Shown one piece after another: positions 47,500-59,886 of a stretch of DNA of 64,000 nucleotides. The stretch is from the NCBI RefSeq assembly GCF_003797835.1, contig NZ_RKMF01000018.1, positions 1-64,000 of the forward strand. The letters run 5' to 3'. The first letter of the stretch is position 1; every line of letters begins with the position of its first letter. Below the pieces are notes generated by a model. That model made no database searches. It was not told the DNA's origin and was given only the letters and a program-made list of their open reading frames with translations. Origin of the DNA: Kocuria soli. Lineage in GTDB: Bacteria; Actinomycetota; Actinomycetes; Actinomycetales; Micrococcaceae. Position numbers and translations under genes: made by a program.

Positions 47500-48297
47500 A
47501 TGCAGAACGTCAAGACTGTTGCTCGTCGCACCGGCCTCGGTATCGCAGTTGCCGGTGTCGCCGCTGCAGCCACCATTGCTCCCGCTTCGGCCATGCCCGA
47601 GCTGAGCTACACCGGCACGCTGCCCACCTCCTTCGATGGTGTGGACTACTCCGCTGCCGAGGCCAACGGCTGGTCCTTCTCCTGGACCCTCGACGCCAAC
47701 GGCAACCCGACCTACAACTACGGCAACGGCGCCTCCTCGGCTCCGGCTGCTGCTTCCAACGCTGCTCCGGCCGCTCAGGCTTCGTCCTCCGACGCCGCTC
47801 CGGCTGCTGCTTCCAACGCTGCTCCGGTGGCCCAGGCTTCCTCCAACGAGGCTGCCCCGGCTTCCGCTTCCTACGAGGCCCCCGCCGCCCAGGCTTCCTC
47901 CTCGAACGAGGCCCCGGCTGCTCAGGCTTCCTCGGGTGTCTCCACCCAGTCCACCGGCTCCGGCTCGACCTCCGGCATCGCCGGCGCTGCTCAGGGCTAC
48001 GTGGGCTCCGGCTACGTCTACGGCGGCACCACCCCGGGCGCCTGGGACTGCTCTGGCTTCACCCAGTACGTCTACGCTCAGCAGGGCATCGAGCTGCCCC
48101 GCACTGCTGCTGCTCAGGGTGCCGCAGGCACCCCGACCTCCAACCCGCAGCCGGGCGACCTGGTCATCCAGAACGGTGGCAGCCACGTCGGCATCTACCT
48201 GGGCAACGGTCAGATGATCTCCGCTCTGAACCCGAGCCAGGGTACCCAGGTCCACTCGGTCAACGCCATGAGCGTTGACAGCTACGTGACCTTCTGA
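47500..48297 (+). CDS. Secreted NlpC/P60 cell-wall hydrolase
   Basis: This 265-residue exported peptidoglycan endopeptidase has a signal peptide (about 1-31, ending APASA). A short N-terminal domain (about 32-75) is followed by an Ala/Ser/Pro linker of imperfect repeats (about 76-155, units such as SNAAPAAQASSS), then the NlpC/P60 domain with the catalytic Cys in GAWDCSGFTQYVY and His in GSHVGIYLG. Codon choice is strongly biased to C/G-ending codons, suggesting high expression. The ATG is 17 bases after the riboswitch with GGAGGAAA before it. Confidence 0.93.
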   Translation: MQNVKTVARRTGLGIAVAGVAAAATIAPASAMPELSYTGTLPTSFDGVDYSAAEANGWSFSWTLDANGNPTYNYGNGASSAPAAASNAAPAAQASSSDAAPAAASNAAPVAQASSNEAAPASASYEAPAAQASSSNEAPAAQASSGVSTQSTGSGSTSGIAGAAQGYVGSGYVYGGTTPGAWDCSGFTQYVYAQQGIELPRTAAAQGAAGTPTSNPQPGDLVIQNGGSHVGIYLGNGQMISALNPSQGTQVHSVNAMSVDSYVTF

Positions 48298-51266: not shown

Positions 51267-52283
51267 TCACTCTTTGTCGGCCACCAGCAGCGTGAGATCG
51301 TCCAGCAGCGTGAACCCGCAGGGTGAATTGGGAGCTCCGTGCGTGGTGAACACGATCTCGTACGGGGTCCCGTCGACGCGGGCCTGGCCGATCGTAGAGA
51401 CCGACCACTGGCCGTCGTCTTCGGCAAGCCACCCGTTCTTGACCGTGACCCCCTCCACCACGGAACTCTCCGGTACGACGGCGGGGTTCGCCAGAACCCC
51501 CAGGCCGAAGCCCTGGGAGTAGCTCGGGTAGCCAGGCGTCGGTGACATGAGCGAACGCAGCAGGGCGGCGTCCTCCGCGCCCAGCCAGTCGGGCGGGTCG
51601 GCCAGCGCGTCGACAACCTTCAACTGGTCCGAAACCGTGGTGGACTCCGCTCCCCACCCGAGTTCGGGCACGGTGTCCTCGGTGCCCAGGAGGTCATAGG
51701 TGTCGGCCAGGGCATCTGTGGCAGCAGCGTCGTCTGGCCCGAGGCGACCGAAGAGAACCGCAGTGGACTCGTTGCCGCTTTTGGAGATCGAATCCGCCAA
51801 CAGGGCACGGTCGCCCGCCGGCAGCTCCTGGCCGGCGGCATCCTGCTGGCGCAGGAAGCTCATGGCCACCACCACCTTGGACAGGCTCGCCGCGCTGGCA
51901 CTGCGCTGGTCGTTGACCAGAACGGTCTCCCCGGTGTCCCGGTTCCGGACGGCGACTCCGACTTCGATGCCCAGGTCGGCCCGGGCACCCTCCACCGCCT
52001 TGTCGAGCGTGGCCTGCATGTCGTCCTCCGGTTGGGCGGCCAGCCACGGGGCGGATACGTCCGAGTCGGCGGTGGCCTGTTCGACGTCGGCGTCCGCCGC
52101 TGAGGTCTCCAGCAGACAAGCGGAGGGAATCATCCGGTACTCGACCCCGGTCTCCTCGGCCTGTTCCGTGGTCATTGACGACGGATACGGAGCATCGGAA
52201 GGAGGTTCCTCCGCCGAGCCGCATCCGGTCACCAACACGGCGCACACCGCCAGTAATGATCGCCTGGTCCCACGTTGCCGCAC
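51267..52283 (-). CDS. Beta-lactamase-fold serine hydrolase lipoprotein
   Basis: This 338-residue exported protein has lipobox VTGC (Cys21), then an acidic linker and a class A beta-lactamase-like domain. The SxxK motif is SLSK (Ser133, Lys136), an SGN motif is in KSGNESTAV, and a KNG triad stands where KTG is usual (TVKNGWLAE). The motifs are complete but variant, so it could be a peptidase, an esterase or a non-resistance paralogue; antibiotic resistance should not be assumed. The start is GTG 52283. Confidence 0.8.
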   Translation of the reverse strand: MRQRGTRRSLLAVCAVLVTGCGSAEEPPSDAPYPSSMTTEQAEETGVEYRMIPSACLLETSAADADVEQATADSDVSAPWLAAQPEDDMQATLDKAVEGARADLGIEVGVAVRNRDTGETVLVNDQRSASAASLSKVVVAMSFLRQQDAAGQELPAGDRALLADSISKSGNESTAVLFGRLGPDDAAATDALADTYDLLGTEDTVPELGWGAESTTVSDQLKVVDALADPPDWLGAEDAALLRSLMSPTPGYPSYSQGFGLGVLANPAVVPESSVVEGVTVKNGWLAEDDGQWSVSTIGQARVDGTPYEIVFTTHGAPNSPCGFTLLDDLTLLVADKE

Positions 52284-52364: not shown

Positions 52365-53579
52365 CTAGGAGTTTCGATTCCTGGCCCGGGTAAAGCGCAG
52401 CGCACGGTACTCGGCCGATCCGAAAGTCTTGAGGAAAGGGCCGGGTGGCACGTGGCGCTGCCAATGGCGTTGGACGGCGAGTTCGTAGAACTCGACCAGC
52501 CGGTTCGTTGAAGCCCGCCAGGAGTACCGCAGGGCTTCCTGGCGCGCAGCCGCTCCCATGGAGGAGCGCAACTGCGGGTTCTCGACAAGGTCCTGCAAGC
52601 GTCGCGTGAAATCGTCGGCGTCTCCGGGCTCGGCCAGGAACCCCGTGACGCCGTCGTCGATCACGAAAGGAATGCCGCCGGCGCGGGCACCGACCACGGG
52701 CACGCCGGAGGCGAAGGCCTCCAGAGCCACCAGTCCCAAGGTCTCGGAACGTGACGGGAAGGCGAAAACGTCCGCGGACGCGTAGGCCTCGGTGAGTTCC
52801 TCCCCGGACATGTACCCGGTGAACACGGTGTTCGTCCCGGCGAACTCCCGTTCGAGCTGCTCCTTGTGGGGCCCGGAGCCCACGATCGCCAGGCGTGCCT
52901 GCGGCAACCGGCGGATCGGTTCCACCAAGTCGTCCAGGTTCTTCTCCTTGGAAACCCGTCCGACGTAGACGATCAAGGGCGCCTCCGGGTGCCCGCCGGT
53001 CAGTCGCTCACGCATGCTTCGGCTGGCCCGGGACGGGTGGTATCCGGCCGTGTCCACCGCCTTGGGCCACAGGTCCACGTCCCTGACGCCCACGCTGCGG
53101 GCGCGTTCCACCATGGGGCCTGAGGTGCACAGATTCACCTCGGACTGGTTGTGCAGCCAGCGCAGCCAGTTCTCCGACGGGTGCCGGAGAAGGGAAAGAC
53201 CCAGCGCATCGGTGTAGTGCGGAACATCGGTGTGGAACGAGGACAGCAGGGGCAGGTCACGACGACGAGCCGAGAGGACTCCGTAGGCGGCCAGCCAGAT
53301 GGGGTTGACCGCGTGCACGATGTCCGGTTGGAAATTCGCCATGTGCGTGGCGATCCGCCCGGTGGGCAGTCCCACCTTGATTTCGGGATACCAGGGCTTG
53401 AACGAGACCGAACGCACCGGAACCACGGTGTGTCCCGCGAAGGACAACGGCGGTTTGCCGGGCGCGAAGATCACGACCTGGTGCCCGAGCGCCTCGAGTT
53501 GTTCGAGGGTACGGAGAATGCGCGTGACCACCCCGTCGATTTTGGGCAGAAAGACCTCGGTGTAGAGGGCGATGCGCAC
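52365..53579 (-). CDS. GT4 glycosyltransferase, probable sulfolipid synthase (SqdX-like)
   Basis: This 404-residue GT-B glycosyltransferase begins RIALYTEVFLPKIDGVVTR and has the UDP-sugar-binding region IVYVGRVSKEKNLDDLVEP and SRSETLGLVALEAFASG. These features are shared by the SqdX/SQD2 and mannosyltransferase branches of GT4. It starts seven bases after sqdB, so transfer of sulfoquinovose from UDP-sulfoquinovose to diacylglycerol is the best reading. GTG 53579 is chosen to match the family N-terminus. Confidence 0.8.
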   Translation of the reverse strand: MRIALYTEVFLPKIDGVVTRILRTLEQLEALGHQVVIFAPGKPPLSFAGHTVVPVRSVSFKPWYPEIKVGLPTGRIATHMANFQPDIVHAVNPIWLAAYGVLSARRRDLPLLSSFHTDVPHYTDALGLSLLRHPSENWLRWLHNQSEVNLCTSGPMVERARSVGVRDVDLWPKAVDTAGYHPSRASRSMRERLTGGHPEAPLIVYVGRVSKEKNLDDLVEPIRRLPQARLAIVGSGPHKEQLEREFAGTNTVFTGYMSGEELTEAYASADVFAFPSRSETLGLVALEAFASGVPVVGARAGGIPFVIDDGVTGFLAEPGDADDFTRRLQDLVENPQLRSSMGAAARQEALRYSWRASTNRLVEFYELAVQRHWQRHVPPGPFLKTFGSAEYRALRFTRARNRNS

Positions 53580-53586
53580 GGAGGAC

Positions 53587-54810
53587 TCAGCGCTCGGCGG
53601 GTGTGGTCGCTGAAGCGGCCATCGATGCCGGGATCCCTGCGTGCGTGCGTCTGTTCCAGAGGGACGTGGCTGGGATCTTGGACAGGTCCGCACGGTGTGC
53701 GTAGCGGCGGGCGGTGTCCTCGACCTCCATCAGCAGTCCCTCGGACAGGGTGGTGGGTTCCAGCCCCAGGTCCAGGAAGGTGTCGTTGGTGACGTGCAGT
53801 TCGTTCTCGGCAGACTCCTGGCGGGGGTTGGGCACCATTTCCACCTCGGCCTCGGAGATGCGGGCCACCAGTTCGGCAAGATCACGCACCCGGTGGGTCT
53901 CGGTCATCTGGTTGAGGATCATGACCCGGTCGCCCGGTGCGGGTGGGTTCTGCAACGCGATCTCGACGCAGCGGACCATGTCTTGGACGTGGATGAACGC
54001 GCGGGTCTGCCCACCGGTGCCGTGCACGGTCAAGGGGTAGCCGACCGCCGCCTGCATGAGGAAGCGGTTGAGCACGGTGCCGTAGTCGCCGTCGTAGTCG
54101 AAGCGGTTGATCAGGCGTTCGTCCAGCAGTGTTTCGGCGGTGTTTGTGCCCCAGATGATGCCCTGGTGGAGGTCGGTGATGCGCACCCGGTCGTTCTTGG
54201 CGTAGAAGGCGAACAGCAGCTGATCCAGTGACTTGGTCATGTGGTAGATCGAGCCCGGGTTGGTCGGGTACAGGATCTGCGTCTCGATGTTGTCCCTGCC
54301 CTCGTGGGGGATCTCCACGTCCAGGTAGCCCTCGGGGATCTTCATCCCGGCGGTGCCGTACCCGTAGACGCCCATGGTGCCCAGGTGCACCACGTGAACG
54401 TCCAGGTCGGATTCGACAATGGCAGCCAGGAGGTTGTGGGTCGCGTTGACGTTGTTGTCCACGGTGTAACGCTTGGTGCGGGGCGTCTTCATCGAGTAGG
54501 GAGCGGCACGCTGTTCCGCGAAGTGCACCACGGCGTCCGGGCGTTGGGTGACCAGCAGGTCGAGCAACCCCTCGTAGTCCTGAGCCACGTCCAGGTGCAC
54601 GTGATCGATCACGTTGCCCGTGACCTCGGTCCAGGCGTGCAGCCGCTCGACCAGGGGACGGATCGGGGTCAGGGACTGGGCATCGAGTTCGTCGTCGATG
54701 CGCCGCCGCGAGAGATTGTCCACGATGACGACGTCGTGTCCCTTGTTGGAAAGGTGCAGGGCGGCCGGCCAGCCGCAGAATCCGTCGCCGCCGAGGATTG
54801 CGATCTTCAC
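53587..54810 (-). CDS. sqdB: UDP-sulfoquinovose synthase
   Basis: This 407-residue short-chain-dehydrogenase-fold enzyme makes UDP-sulfoquinovose from UDP-glucose and sulfite. The NAD-binding loop is ILGGDGFCGWPAALHLS (residues 5-21), the substrate-binding region is DNLSRRRIDDELDAQSL, and the catalytic Tyr/Lys pair is in SIYHMTKSLDQ; QHRAAP-like AEQRAAPYSMK is characteristic of SqdB/SQD1. The start GTG 54810 gives the canonical N-terminus. With the next gene it forms a minimal sulfolipid pathway. Confidence 0.92.
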   Translation of the reverse strand: MKIAILGGDGFCGWPAALHLSNKGHDVVIVDNLSRRRIDDELDAQSLTPIRPLVERLHAWTEVTGNVIDHVHLDVAQDYEGLLDLLVTQRPDAVVHFAEQRAAPYSMKTPRTKRYTVDNNVNATHNLLAAIVESDLDVHVVHLGTMGVYGYGTAGMKIPEGYLDVEIPHEGRDNIETQILYPTNPGSIYHMTKSLDQLLFAFYAKNDRVRITDLHQGIIWGTNTAETLLDERLINRFDYDGDYGTVLNRFLMQAAVGYPLTVHGTGGQTRAFIHVQDMVRCVEIALQNPPAPGDRVMILNQMTETHRVRDLAELVARISEAEVEMVPNPRQESAENELHVTNDTFLDLGLEPTTLSEGLLMEVEDTARRYAHRADLSKIPATSLWNRRTHAGIPASMAASATTPAER

Positions 54811-54968
54811 GTGGTCTCCGTTTCTAGCGTGCGTCCTGTCGGTGCTTTCCCGCTGCGCCGTCGGTCTGGGTGCGGGCGGTCCGGCCATGCTCCGTTGACC
54901 ACGGGCACCGAGTCCCTCAATTCTGGCAGATGGTTGTCCTGGCGGACGGGGCACCCTGCGGAGTCGGC

Positions 54969-55520
54969 TCAGGCGGCCCGCCGAATCCAGTCCACGGGGC
55001 GATGGCCTCCTCGGTGAGCAATCTGCAGGCGGGCGCTGGACAGCATCCGGTCCAGCCGATGAGCGTGGGCCACGGGTACCACGGGGTCGTCCTCGGAGTG
55101 CACGATCACGACGTCCAGATCGGCCAGTGCCCTGTCCGCGTGGAGGGGGAGGGCCCACGCCGGGCCCCACCAGGGGTGGGATTCATCGTGTGCCTGGCCC
55201 GGGCCCGGCGCCTCCCACAAGGGCGCGCCCACGATGACCGTGCGGCGCAACATCGTTGGCCTCCGCAGGCACAGGAAACGCAGTGCCTCGGACCCGCCCA
55301 GGGAATGGCCCACCAGGATCCAGGGCTCGTCGGGCAGCTCACGGATCGCACGGGCGATTTCGTGCTGCCACAGTTGCGCGGAATCCGGGCGGTCGGTCGG
55401 CGGGAGCTGTGGGGCGATGATCTCGGCGTCCGGCCAGTGGGCACGGAGTTCCCGGGCGATCTCGTCGTCCGGGCCGTCGTCGTCACCTGCGCCGTGCAGG
55501 TACAGAATGCGGTTGACCAT
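54969..55520 (-). CDS. Small alpha/beta hydrolase (RBBP9/YdeN-like)
   Basis: This 183-residue serine hydrolase has the nucleophile elbow GHSLGGS, an early ILYLHGAG oxyanion region, Asp in VIVHSEDDPVVP and His in HRGGHRPVDW. The compact size and the position of the triad resemble RBBP9/YdeN proteins. The substrate is unknown. ATG 55520 follows AAGGAG. Confidence 0.85.
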   Translation of the reverse strand: MVNRILYLHGAGDDDGPDDEIARELRAHWPDAEIIAPQLPPTDRPDSAQLWQHEIARAIRELPDEPWILVGHSLGGSEALRFLCLRRPTMLRRTVIVGAPLWEAPGPGQAHDESHPWWGPAWALPLHADRALADLDVVIVHSEDDPVVPVAHAHRLDRMLSSARLQIAHRGGHRPVDWIRRAA

Positions 55521-55737
55521 GTGAGGCTCCTTCTGCGCGTCCAGTGTTCCCGGACACCCTGCTGGTAAGTGTTCTTAGAGTTTCGCACTTCCCAGGAGCG
55601 CAGTCACCGGATTGGCCGAAGATGTGCTCTGGCAGGGGAGGTTGGTGGCGGTTGACCGGGCTGTGGTGGAATCACCTCGACGGGCGGGGGCAGCGCAGGC
55701 CCTGGAGCGGGGCGTCGTGACGGGAGGAAGGGCGAGC

Positions 55738-57126
55738 GTGGCTGAGGCGACTCGTGTGGCCGCTCACGGTCTGGACGTCCCCGGGCCCGTGGGCGACCGG
55801 GACCTGGCGGTCGATGCCGCCCGCGTGGGAGCCCTTGTCCTGGTGGTCTGCGCGCACGTCCTGCTGGTCACGCTGGTCACGGTTCCGGGGACCGGGGGCG
55901 TTTCCCTGACCATGGCACCCACCCGTCACTCGTGGTTCTGGTGGTTCTCGTGGATCGTCCAGATCATGCCGCTGTTCTTCGTGGTGGGTGGGTTCTCCTC
56001 CGCGGTCTCCTGGGCCCGGTTCGCCGACGGCCCGGGTGCCTCGGTCGGTGCCAAGGCACTGTGCTGGATCCGGGGGCGACTGCTCAGACTGGCCCAACCG
56101 GCCGCCGTTCTCTGGGTGTCCTTGGCGGTCGTGACAGCTGGTGCACTGGCGGCCGGGGCGCCGGTGAGGGAGGTTCGCCTGGCGCTCTCGGGGTTGGGGA
56201 TGCACCTGTGGTTCCTGGGTGCTTACGCACTGTGCCTGGCCCTCGTGCCTCTGACCCATGCTGCGCATCGCCGCCATCCGTACCTGAGCCTGGGGGCCTT
56301 GTTGGTGGTGTGTGCAGCCGCTGAGATTCCGCGGTTGGTCACCGGAGACCATTGGTGGGGGCTGTTGTCCCTCGGGCCCGTCTGGGTGACGATCCATCAA
56401 CTGGGCTATTTCCGGGCGGACGGCACCGCGGCGCGTGCTCGCGGCCCGGTCATGGTCCTCGCCGCCGGCGCCGGGTACCTGGCACTGTGGGCCTTGGTCA
56501 GCACGGGCTGGTGGGTACGGGACATGTTGGCCGGTCTCAATCCACCGAGTCTGACGCTTGTCGTGCTGGGCTTCAGCCAGGCCTGCCTCCTGCAGGCGCT
56601 GACCCCGGCCCTGTCCCGCCTCATGTCTTGGCGACCCGTCCAGGCAGCGGCCTGGCTCATCGGATCCCGGCCCGTGACCCTTTACCTGTGGCACCTGCCC
56701 GTCATCGTCCTGGTGATGTCCGTGTGGTGGTTGTCGAACGCTCCCGAACCGGAACCGGCCAGCGGCCGCTGGTGGCTGTGGCGGATACCGTTGGCGCTCA
56801 TCTGCTGGGCGGGGGCGCTGGCCGTCGTCCGGATGTTCGGTCGGTGGGAGACGACGGCGGTCCTGCCGCCCGCCACGCGTGCCCGGGCGCTCGCCGTCGT
56901 ACCTTCCACGCCCCACTACGCGGCCGTCGTCCTTGCGGTGATTCTGCTGATAGTGCCGGTGGTCCTGGAGATCCGGTTCCTGCTCAACCCGGTCCTGGTG
57001 ACCGTGGGTGCGGTGGCCTACTTGGCCGCCGCGGTTCTCTTGCGGTGGGCCCCTGACCTGCGCCGGCCTGCCGACGCACCCGAAGGCGAAGCGTCCCTAC
57101 AGACTGAGCAGCGGCGAAACATGTGA
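55738..57126 (+). CDS. Acyltransferase-3-family membrane protein
   Basis: This 462-residue protein has about ten to twelve hydrophobic segments and the family opening VDAARVGALVLVVCAHVLL. It contains an FFVVGGFSSAVSWARF segment with an Arg/His context used by O-acyltransferases, and the late LYLWHLPVIVLVMS. It probably transfers an acyl group to a surface carbohydrate or lipid. GTG 55738 is selected because GGAGGAAGG precedes it; the frame is open from TTG 55612 with no family sequence there. Confidence 0.75.
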   Translation: MAEATRVAAHGLDVPGPVGDRDLAVDAARVGALVLVVCAHVLLVTLVTVPGTGGVSLTMAPTRHSWFWWFSWIVQIMPLFFVVGGFSSAVSWARFADGPGASVGAKALCWIRGRLLRLAQPAAVLWVSLAVVTAGALAAGAPVREVRLALSGLGMHLWFLGAYALCLALVPLTHAAHRRHPYLSLGALLVVCAAAEIPRLVTGDHWWGLLSLGPVWVTIHQLGYFRADGTAARARGPVMVLAAGAGYLALWALVSTGWWVRDMLAGLNPPSLTLVVLGFSQACLLQALTPALSRLMSWRPVQAAAWLIGSRPVTLYLWHLPVIVLVMSVWWLSNAPEPEPASGRWWLWRIPLALICWAGALAVVRMFGRWETTAVLPPATRARALAVVPSTPHYAAVVLAVILLIVPVVLEIRFLLNPVLVTVGAVAYLAAAVLLRWAPDLRRPADAPEGEASLQTEQRRNM

Positions 57127-57239: not shown

Positions 57240-57319
57240 GCCTGCACCGCCCGCAGCGCACGAACAACTCCGTGGGTGACCGTGCAGGTCAAGAGCACCA
57301 ACCCACTGGAGGTACCGAG

Positions 57320-58708
57320 ATGACGCTCTCGCCCTCGGCAACCATCAACGGCTCGTCCTCGTTGGCCACTCGGCAGATCCATGCCGGTCGCGGCGGTTCG
57401 GCCGATTCGCCCACCCAGGCGACCCTTCCCGTGCCGATCTACCAGTCCTCGGCCTTCGAGTTCCCCGATCACGCCTCCGCGGCGGCCATGTTCGCTCAGA
57501 CCCAGCCGGGCTTCACCTACTCCCGTACCGGTAACCCGACCGTGGCTGTTCTGGAAGCGCGCTCCGCTGATCTGGAGGGCGGGATCGCGGGTCTCGCCCT
57601 GGGGTCGGGTCAGTCCGCTGTTGCCGCCGCACTGTTGGCGCTGGTGAGCACCGGGCCCGGCAAGCACCTGGTCGTCTCGGAGAAGATCTACGGCGGCACC
57701 GTGGACCTCCTGGGCGACACCCTGGCCGACCTCGGCGTCACCGTGACCTACGTGGACCCGACGGACGCCTCCCAGTGGGCCGCGGCCGTCACCGATCAGA
57801 CTCGAGGATTCTTCCTGGAATCCATCGGCAACCCGCTGTCCACTCTGGCCGACCTCGACGCCATTGCCGAGGTCGCACACGAGGCCGGTGTTCCCGTGGT
57901 CGTGGACAACACACTGGCCACGCCGGTCCTGTACCGCCCCATCGAACACGGGGCGGACATCGTGGTCCACTCGGCCACCAAGTACTTCGGGGGCCACGGC
58001 ACGGCGCTGGCCGGGGTCATCGTGGACGCCGGGCGGTTCGACTGGGAGGCCCGGCCCGAGCGGTGGCCGCAGTTCACGAGCCCGCGTGAGCGGTGGGGCC
58101 ACCAGAGCCTCGTGGACAAGTGCCGCGGGGGCTCACCTTTCCTCCACCTGTGCCGTGCCAAGTTCGTCCACGACCTCGGCCTCACCCTGTCGCCGTTCAA
58201 CGCCTCCCAGATCATCCAAGGAATGGAGACCCTGGACCTGCGGGTGCGCAGGCACAGTGATTCCGCGGCACGGATCGCACGGTTCCTGGACGGCCACCCG
58301 GCTGTCCGGCGGGTGCACCACCCCGTCGTCGAATCCTCCGTGGATCACCGGATCGCGGAACGGGACTATCCTTCGGGGACGGGCGCGGTGTTCGCCTTCG
58401 AACTCAACTGCGACCCCGAGCGCGTGCCGGAATTCGTGGACTCGTTGCGCCTGTTCAAGCTGGTGGCCAACATCGGTGACGTCCGGTCACTCGTCGCCCA
58501 CCCGGCGGCCATGACGCACTGTCGCCTGACCGAGGAGCAGCGGTTGGCCGCTGGCATCACGTGGGAGACGCTGCGTCTGTCCATCGGTTTGGAAGCCGCC
58601 GAGGACCTGATCGCCGACCTGCAGTCCTCCCTGGACGAACTGCAGAGGACCAGCCCCGCCTCGGCACGGACCTCGGACGTCGAGTCCGCGCAGGAGGCGC
58701 GGGCATGA
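57320..58708 (+). CDS. metY: O-acetylhomoserine sulfhydrylase-like PLP enzyme
   Basis: This 462-residue member of the Cys/Met-metabolism PLP family has the lysine in [18 protein letters not shown], the cofactor-binding [15 protein letters not shown] and a [15 protein letters not shown] substrate region. The length and the additional loops match MetY, which makes homocysteine directly from O-acetylhomoserine and sulfide. ATG 57320 follows ACTGGAGG. It is behind the SAM-IV aptamer and overlaps metB by four bases. Confidence 0.88.
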
Positions 58709-59886
58709 GCGGGTTCACCACGCGGGCGGTCCACGCCGGGCAGGAACCCGACCGCCTCACGGGTGCCGTGATTCCGCCGATCTACCAGACCTCCACCTTT
58801 GTCCAGGACGGCATCAACGTCCTGCGGGACGGACACGAGTACTCGCGGGGGTCCAACCCGACCCGCAACGGTTTCGAGGAGCAACTGTGCGCCCTGGAAG
58901 GTGGGTTCCGGGCGTTCTCGTTCGCCTCGGGGATTGCCGCGGAGGACGCCTTGCTGCGTGCCCTGCTGCGCCCCGGGGACCACGTGATCCTGGGCGGTGA
59001 CGGGTACGGCGGGACGAACAGGCTGATCTCCAGGGTCCTGGCTCCCTGGCAGGTTGCACATTCGCCCGTGGACGTCACCAACCCCGACGCGGTTCGCGGA
59101 GCCTTCACGGACAAGACCCGTGTGCTTTGGGTGGAAACACCCACGAACCCGCTGTTGGGGATCGCCGATCTGGCGACGCTGGCGCAGCTCGCCCACGACC
59201 ACGGAACGCTGCTGGTCGTGGACAACACCTTTGCCTCGCCCTATCTCCAGCGTCCTTTCGAATTCGGCGCCGACGTCGTGGTGCACTCCACGACCAAGTA
59301 CGTGGGCGGCCATTCGGACGTGCTGGGCGGCGCCGTCGTCGTCACGGACAAGGCCTGGGAGGTTGCCGAGGTCAACGGGTTCTCGCCCGGAGCCACCCTT
59401 GCTGAACTGCTGGCCTTCCAGCAGTTCGCGGGGGGAGCGGTCTCCGGCCCGCAGGACAGCTACCTGGCCGCACGCGGACTGAAGACGCTGGCCCTTCGCA
59501 TGGAGCGACACCAGGCCAATGCCGGGCGGATCGCGCAATGGCTCACCGAGCGACCGGAGGTGGCGGAGGTCCTGTACCCGGGGCTGCCGGACCACCCGGG
59601 ACACGAATTGGCGGCGCGGCAGATGGACGGCTTCGGCGGAATGGTGTCCTTCCGGCTCGCGGCCGGAGAGGCGGCCGCGCGCCGATTCGCGGAGTCCACG
59701 CACATGTACAAGCTCTCCGTGTCCCTGGGCGGAGTCGAGTCCCTGATCTGCTGGCCTTCGGAAATGACCCACGGGTGCGTCGTCGGCACGGACCAAGCGG
59801 TCCCGACCGACCTGGTCAGGCTCTCCGTGGGCATAGAGGACCTGGAGGACCACCTGGAGGACCTGGAGCGCGCCTTCACATCGTGA
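58705..59886 (+). CDS. metB: Cystathionine gamma-synthase/lyase-type PLP enzyme
   Basis: This 393-residue enzyme is in the same fold family, with the PLP lysine in VVHSTTKYVGGHSDVLGG, EYSRGSNPTRNGFEEQL and a C-terminal SLGGVESLICWPSEMTH. Its operon with metY under SAM control favours cystathionine gamma-synthase (homocysteine via cystathionine); gamma-lyase and MetZ cannot be separated from it by sequence. It has a four-base overlap with metY. A perfect hairpin follows. Confidence 0.85.
   Translation: MSGFTTRAVHAGQEPDRLTGAVIPPIYQTSTFVQDGINVLRDGHEYSRGSNPTRNGFEEQLCALEGGFRAFSFASGIAAEDALLRALLRPGDHVILGGDGYGGTNRLISRVLAPWQVAHSPVDVTNPDAVRGAFTDKTRVLWVETPTNPLLGIADLATLAQLAHDHGTLLVVDNTFASPYLQRPFEFGADVVVHSTTKYVGGHSDVLGGAVVVTDKAWEVAEVNGFSPGATLAELLAFQQFAGGAVSGPQDSYLAARGLKTLALRMERHQANAGRIAQWLTERPEVAEVLYPGLPDHPGHELAARQMDGFGGMVSFRLAAGEAAARRFAESTHMYKLSVSLGGVESLICWPSEMTHGCVVGTDQAVPTDLVRLSVGIEDLEDHLEDLERAFTS

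Follow-up and report, generated by a model that had tools for sequence, protein, structure and literature searches.

The window analyzed here is a stretch of 64,000 nucleotides of contig NZ_RKMF01000018.1 from Kocuria soli, a member of a non-photosynthetic genus, whose genome assembly comprises 2.95 Mb in 31 contigs. On the minus strand it carries two adjacent genes, sqdB (53587..54810), predicted to encode a UDP-sulfoquinovose synthase, and a gene for a glycosyltransferase (GT) of family GT4 (52365..53579), predicted to be a sulfolipid synthase of the SqdX type. The sqdB gene encodes 407 amino acids, from a GTG start at 54810 to a TGA stop at 53589-53587, and the GT gene 404 amino acids from a GTG start at 53579. 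An original prediction, made from the letters of the sequence, had proposed a two-gene sulfolipid pathway at this position, with the GT seven bases downstream of sqdB; the spacer between the genes (53580..53586, minus strand), read directly, indeed has seven bases. The interval given there, 53579-54810, spans the whole of sqdB but only the first base of the GT gene, which reaches down to 52365.

The best PDB match of the window SqdB was plant SQD1, whose crystal-structure sequences (1qrr/1i24) aligned with residues 2-387 of the 407 at E values of 6e-93 to 7e-93. Copies at 72–90% identity, each with an adjoining GT, were also found in the 16 other genomes of the family that carry SqdB; both findings place the observation beyond chance. 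The residues first singled out as specific for SqdB could all be recovered, namely GGDGFCGW (residues 7-14; 54769..54792, minus strand), SRRRIDDELDAQSL, and the Tyr/Lys pair, which the alignment places at Tyr189 and Lys193 (54232..54246, minus strand). Together with Thr145 (54376..54378, minus strand) these two residues align with Thr145, Tyr182 and Lys186 of SQD1; we take the Thr, Tyr and Lys to be active-site residues and Tyr189/Lys193 to be the catalytic pair. A structure mutated at residue 145 has been solved, and its SQD1 sequence (PDB 1i2b) reads Ala at the position of Thr145. Among 131 aligned SqdB rows, Tyr and Lys were retained throughout, the Thr position read Thr in 126 and Ser in five, and G7, G8, D9 and G10 of GGDGFCGW were retained in 130, 129, 130 and 130, respectively; these and the following counts refer to rows, not species, and include repeats (the window protein four times). 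The window SqdB has Val where SQD1 has Glu148. Over the four columns the combination T-V-Y-K was seen in 79 of 132 rows, including Sinorhizobium meliloti and Leptothoe, and T-E-Y-K in 47, including SQD1 and two other cyanobacterial rows that were inspected.

Against the NCBIfam model NF041015 the window SqdB scored 331 bits, under the equivalog cut-off of 575. All five comparison SqdB proteins scanned fell under it too (332 bits for S. meliloti, 458 bits for a cyanobacterium), and the cut-off was therefore not treated as defining. SqdB-like matches at about 30% identity in four more genomes of the family were read as another clade; those in two other genera of the family (loci L026-L029), with Ser/Cys at columns 145/148, were not counted as SqdB. 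The sequence argues strongly that the window SqdB would convert UDP-glucose and sulfite to UDP-sulfoquinovose.

The SqdB tree (68 rows) had two sides. SQD1, 12 cyanobacterial SqdB proteins, five rows of a group labelled f18 and one Pseudonocardia protein grouped together with support of 100/99, and on the other side (91/92) the window protein was accompanied by those of S. meliloti, Leptothoe and Trueperaceae, one from a Rhodobacteraceae plasmid, and several groups of its own phylum. Long branches connect the two sides, and the Agrobacterium row was very long. This division agrees with the description, in the accessible text of two papers, of two major SqdB clades, one of them with certain cyanobacteria, alphaproteobacteria and red algae (PMC8227023, PMC6946739). 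We considered the f18 group (71–73% identity) as the donor of the window SqdB; its fork with the window side had support of 88/82, deeper forks were unsupported, and no donor is claimed. In Leptothoe kymatousa (L156) a cyanobacterial sqdX lies near an SqdB of the S. meliloti type (69% identity to the window protein), the same mix as in Kocuria and unlike the other 35 cyanobacterial loci with SqdB.

The window GT has GT4 domains in Pfam and the EX7E motif, E279-(7)-E287 (52719..52745, minus strand). In a tree of 72 rows it formed one group, supported at 99/99, with 32 GTs from Actinomycetota and Trueperaceae, all but one of which (L114) adjoin SqdB. Two further groups consisted of cyanobacterial SqdX (100/99) and of the f18 GTs (100/100); MgtA-like rows, MshA, PimA and PimB' fell outside all three, the PimA and PimB' segments as long branches, and the joins among the groups were unsupported. 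In the same tree the GT of one genome of the genus was identical, across the columns compared, to that of Kocuria sp. S28M_Sa_16, and Kocuria dechangensis grouped with three more genomes of the genus. In a smaller tree, which omitted seven long rows and nine of the 32 actinobacterial and Trueperaceae rows, the window group, cyanobacterial SqdX and the f18 GTs stood together against the MgtA-like rows and the GTs of a group labelled f27 (99/95). Fifteen comparison GTs had been proposed for the tree; five of them, from the Kocuria genome itself (L180, L182, L185-L187), had no match to the window GT at 1e-8 and were excluded, and the GT4 loci L184 and L188-L196 of the same genome lay outside the set. 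Neither tree contained a galactolipid synthase or plant SQD2, and the Trueperaceae GTs L105 and L111, which have no SqdB, were in neither, whereas L114, which has no adjoining SqdB, was in both. For four GT4 paralogues of the Kocuria genome the labels PimA/PimB were dropped, as the PDB gave no match at the limit for three and tetrahydrobiopterin glucosyltransferases for one.

Sixteen marker residues (for example D15, V18, T19, R20, N92, N149, C151, T152 and L281) were common to the window group and SqdX. A marker residue was defined as one present in at least 85% of the 33 window-group rows and of 18 cyanobacterial rows, in none of three MgtA-like rows and in at most two of nine other GT4 rows. 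MgtA-like proteins, PimB' and PimA are GT4 relatives of the window GT that differ from it in falling into separate tree groups, and all 16 residues are absent from the three MgtA-like rows.

Within the family, SqdB at 70% identity or more was found in 17 of 245 genomes, nine of the 18 Kocuria genomes and eight of a second genus. A close GT (E ≤ 3e-140) was present in the same 17 genomes and adjoins SqdB in every one; the remaining six GT matches in the family reached 33–38% identity. A scan of named genomes with the GT alignment, which is no census, returned at least 80 loci (29 non-cyanobacterial, 51 cyanobacterial). Among the matches listed, sqdB lies directly upstream of the GT in 26 of the 29 non-cyanobacterial loci: two in Kocuria, two in Citricoccus, five in Brevibacterium, two in Serinicoccus, two in Propionibacterium (one of which runs off the contig end), seven in Corynebacterium, one in Gulosibacter and five in Trueperaceae. 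The linkage, as read from these sequences, extends to two phyla besides the cyanobacteria. Both Kocuria dechangensis CGMCC 1.12187 and Citricoccus zhacaiensis CGMCC 1.7064 carry the pair. The three unlinked loci are all from Trueperaceae, and one of these genomes has SqdB elsewhere, beside a second GT. In cyanobacteria SqdB was upstream within the fetched stretch in 36 of the 51 loci listed, not in every case next to the GT; the genomes of six of the other 15 loci were searched, and SqdB was found elsewhere in all six.

The other neighbors of the pair vary. Ten of them, from five genera and one Trueperaceae locus, comprised a YceI protein, an FHA protein, a nitroreductase-family protein, a metallo-beta-lactamase/rhodanese protein, a DUF6882 protein, an ABC protein, a GT2, a methyltransferase, one with a weak match and one without a family. 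Because these neighbors differ between genera, the conserved unit is the pair of sqdB and GT. In a search for an empty site in Kocuria genomes without the pair, the downstream neighbor of the window pair found a match in 10 of the 27 genomes compared within the genus.

From the identity of SqdB, the GT trees, the marker residues and the linkage, we consider it very probable that sqdB and the GT gene make up a complete pathway of their own to sulfoquinovosyl diacylglycerol (SQDG). The sequence supports the two-gene pathway of the original prediction, and from it we infer which donor and acceptor the GT uses, what lipid results and that this lipid serves under phosphate scarcity. In the proposed mechanism, SqdB would form UDP-sulfoquinovose from sulfite and UDP-glucose, and the SqdX-type GT4 would transfer sulfoquinovose from UDP to diacylglycerol at the membrane, by which the cell would gain an anionic lipid without phosphorus. 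These are the reactions assigned to SqdB and SqdX (PMC5638391, PMC8227023; these and the papers cited below are quoted from the portions of text that were accessible). The genome also contains a GalU gene (348 bits, curated cut-off 327) and two neighboring genes of the PAPS-reductase family (PF01507), which makes a supply of UDP-glucose and sulfite plausible.

Several results weigh against this assignment. The window GT has just 44–47% identity to cyanobacterial SqdX, and the join of its group with cyanobacterial SqdX alone reached only 86/49 in the smaller tree. Approximately unbiased (AU) tests rejected neither a union of the window GT group with the MgtA-like rows (p 0.078) nor one with the f18 GTs (p 0.10). 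At 13 of the 16 marker positions most f18 GTs carry the shared residue; these GTs do not adjoin SqdB and have no assigned function. Two Trueperaceae metagenome-assembled genomes (L105, L111) have a GT at 55–58% identity, and no SqdB was found in them; gaps in these assemblies or another use of the GT may lie behind this. In the rest of the phylum, SqdB matches (E ≤ 1e-30) occurred in 101 of 396 sampled genomes, all except the window outside its own class, and no window-type GT lay within about 1.5 kb at any of the 29 SqdB loci fetched from other classes (L032-L060, about 48–73% identity to the window SqdB), so SqdB alone is no proof of SQDG. Eighteen of 34 such genomes searched have a GT at 31–45% identity, located elsewhere.

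These results bear on three other explanations of the pair. UDP-sulfoquinovose could be made and then transferred to a different acceptor (a glycolipid, phosphatidylglycerol or a wall glycan), giving another sulfosugar glycoconjugate. The weak join with SqdX alone would fit this, and SqdB does occur with other GTs, on a Rhodococcus plasmid with a GT2 and a 639-aa protein that has no match in Pfam, and on an Agrobacterium plasmid with glycosyltransferases and methyltransferases. The best NCBIfam model for the window GT, GlcNAc-phosphatidylglycerol synthase (170 bits, cut-off 480), points the same way, but it is not discriminating, as three GTs of the cyanobacterial SqdX group score 155–165 bits, and it was left unused; it scores the MgtA-like paralogue of the Kocuria genome similarly to the window GT. 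With marker residues and tree following SqdX, another acceptor appears unlikely. It is very improbable that the GT is a mannosyltransferase of the MgtA or phosphatidylinositol mannoside (PIM) type that came to lie beside sqdB by chance. Among proteins of solved structure, its nearest matches are PimB' and PimA (E about 1e-20 to 1e-19), and the AU test did not reject the MgtA-like union; yet the Kocuria genome has an MgtA-like paralogue on another contig, Corynebacterium minutissimum likewise has both an MgtA-like GT and an sqdB-linked GT, and the GT is accompanied by sqdB in all 17 family genomes and in 26 of 29 named loci among the matches listed. A firm grouping with PIM enzymes, which the original prediction named as speaking against a sulfolipid synthase, did not appear: the GT fell with SqdX and the f18 GTs, away from the MgtA-like rows at 99/95, and PimA and PimB' stayed outside, although the link to SqdX alone was weak. 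The third explanation, an acquired pair that is silent or in decay and yields no lipid, would agree with its patchy occurrence (nine of the 18 sampled genomes of the genus) and with the lack of a PHO-box-like site before the window sqdB. Both frames are open, however, the active-site residues are retained, and among the matches listed the pair has been kept in seven actinobacterial genera and in Trueperaceae, which makes such decay extremely improbable.

To return to the predicted SQDG pair, its upstream region was compared with the actinobacterial PHO box, described as 11-bp direct repeats with GTTCACC (PMC9019756, PMC4415409). The 300 bases before sqdB were scored in 42 loci as matches out of 14 and compared with 200 shuffles; this scoring was post hoc, the motif having first been seen by eye in the same stretches. 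Of nine Kocuria relatives, four reached 12–13 of 14 (none of 200 shuffles as good) and two reached 11 (5 and 9 of 200), at 85–125 bases before the start; across these nine loci (44.7 kb) all five sites with at least 12 matches sit before sqdB. The sequences offer a lead toward phosphate control of sqdB in several Kocuria relatives. In the window the best score before sqdB was 9 of 14, with 156 of 200 shuffles as good, that is, no PHO-box-like site, and phosphate control of the window sqdB is not supported. Such repeats were likewise absent from the 300 bases scored in the Kocuria relatives L010, L011 and L014. A Citricoccus locus (L016) scored 13; other Citricoccus loci have a site with a score of 11–14 on the opposite strand, about 270–340 bases upstream, which may belong to the divergent YceI gene. 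Scores of 11–12 were obtained in three of seven Corynebacterium loci, of 10–11 in all five Brevibacterium loci (4 to 42 of 200 shuffles) and of 11 in Gulosibacter on the opposite strand (2 of 200). Chance-level scores of 8–10 (20 to 200 of 200 shuffles) came from Serinicoccus, Propionibacterium and six Trueperaceae loci.

A 13-mer 5' of the window sqdB, CTGCCAGAATTGA (54917..54929, minus strand), recurs with at most one difference in L010, L011 and L014, the three Kocuria relatives without PHO-box-like repeats, and is perhaps a promoter or regulatory element. A search of the genome returned one exact copy and two with one mismatch, versus 12 for a reversed control pattern; with so few copies it does not look like a regulon motif.

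Next upstream of sqdB lies a gene for a small alpha/beta hydrolase (54969-55520, minus strand), and next downstream of the GT gene one for a protein with a weak Beta-lactamase2 match in Pfam (51267-52283, minus strand). Divergent from the hydrolase gene is an acyltransferase of the Acyl_transf_3 family (55612-57126); acylated sulfolipids are known in other systems. A few kilobases from sqdB are sulfur amino-acid genes, for an O-acetylhomoserine sulfhydrylase-like protein and a cystathionine gamma-synthase (57272-59886). Further away, 47500-48297 encodes a protein, probably secreted, that has Ala/Ser-rich repeats and, judged by eye, a C-terminal part resembling an NlpC/P60 peptidase.

The Kocuria pair shares with cyanobacterial sqdB-sqdX the gene order, the two enzyme types and the GT marker residues. 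It differs in its non-photosynthetic host and in its SqdB, which stands on the opposite side of the tree and has 44–47% identity to 35 of the 36 SqdB proteins found at cyanobacterial loci. The SqdB of S. meliloti pSymB is on the same side (66% identity), whereas its gene neighbor there encodes a GT8-family protein in place of the GT4 partner in Kocuria. The reactions of plant SQD1/SQD2 are the same (PMC8227023); SQD1 itself falls on the opposite side and, as noted, has Glu148 in place of Val.

Other SqdB loci showed different surroundings. On the Rhodococcus qingshengii plasmid NZ_CP054208.1 (L083, 196186-213364), an SqdB at 64% identity lies with the 639-aa protein, the GT2 and an alkyl-sulfatase-type protein, and a few kilobases upstream are a sulfate permease and a 'sulfolipid-1-addressing' family protein (PF11139, 85 bits, cut-off 35); these genes may belong to a separate sulfosugar glycolipid pathway that has an exporter of its own. 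In three of the seven Corynebacterium loci a membrane protein with a weak PF11139 match (26 bits, under the cut-off) was seen, divergent just upstream of sqdB in L106 (2925-3578) and L104 and about 2 kb upstream in L100; from its sequence it is a possible lipid exporter.

The reactions and the gene order of the pair are already known. What seems new is the host range, together with the combination, outside photosynthetic bacteria, of an SqdX-type GT and an SqdB of the S. meliloti type. No report of SQDG synthesis in these hosts was found in the full-text literature searched, a collection beyond which most subscription papers lie. In the accessible text of a Baltic Sea study, lipid-remodelling genes are described in Actinobacteria, and among bacteria SQD1/SQD2 expression is named for cyanobacteria (PMC13086504). 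A 2026 review gives phototrophs and certain archaea as sulfoquinovose producers (PMC12890257), a 2024 review counts SQDG among the biomarkers of algal and cyanobacterial 'chloroplasts' (PMC11278827), and root-nodule bacteria are a known non-photosynthetic exception (PMC5638391). Judged from the gene content described here, SQDG may be made more widely than usually stated.

A broader proposal is that sqdB-sqdX is a spreading phosphate-sparing cassette of heterotrophic Gram-positive bacteria, including Corynebacterium and Brevibacterium, and of Trueperaceae, which in many of them would be switched on by PhoP under phosphate limitation, with SQDG replacing phosphatidylglycerol. We put this forward tentatively and think that it may well be wrong; if true, SQDG would not be a marker of photosynthetic membranes, and these bacteria would carry sulfoquinovose to habitats that lack plants and algae. 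Both review statements (PMC12890257, PMC11278827, as far as their accessible text goes) would need widening if SQDG is made by culturable Kocuria, Citricoccus, Brevibacterium and Corynebacterium. Sulfoquinovose-degrading bacteria would then have a source besides plants and algae, and a role of SQDG apart from photosynthesis would become testable in simple cultures.

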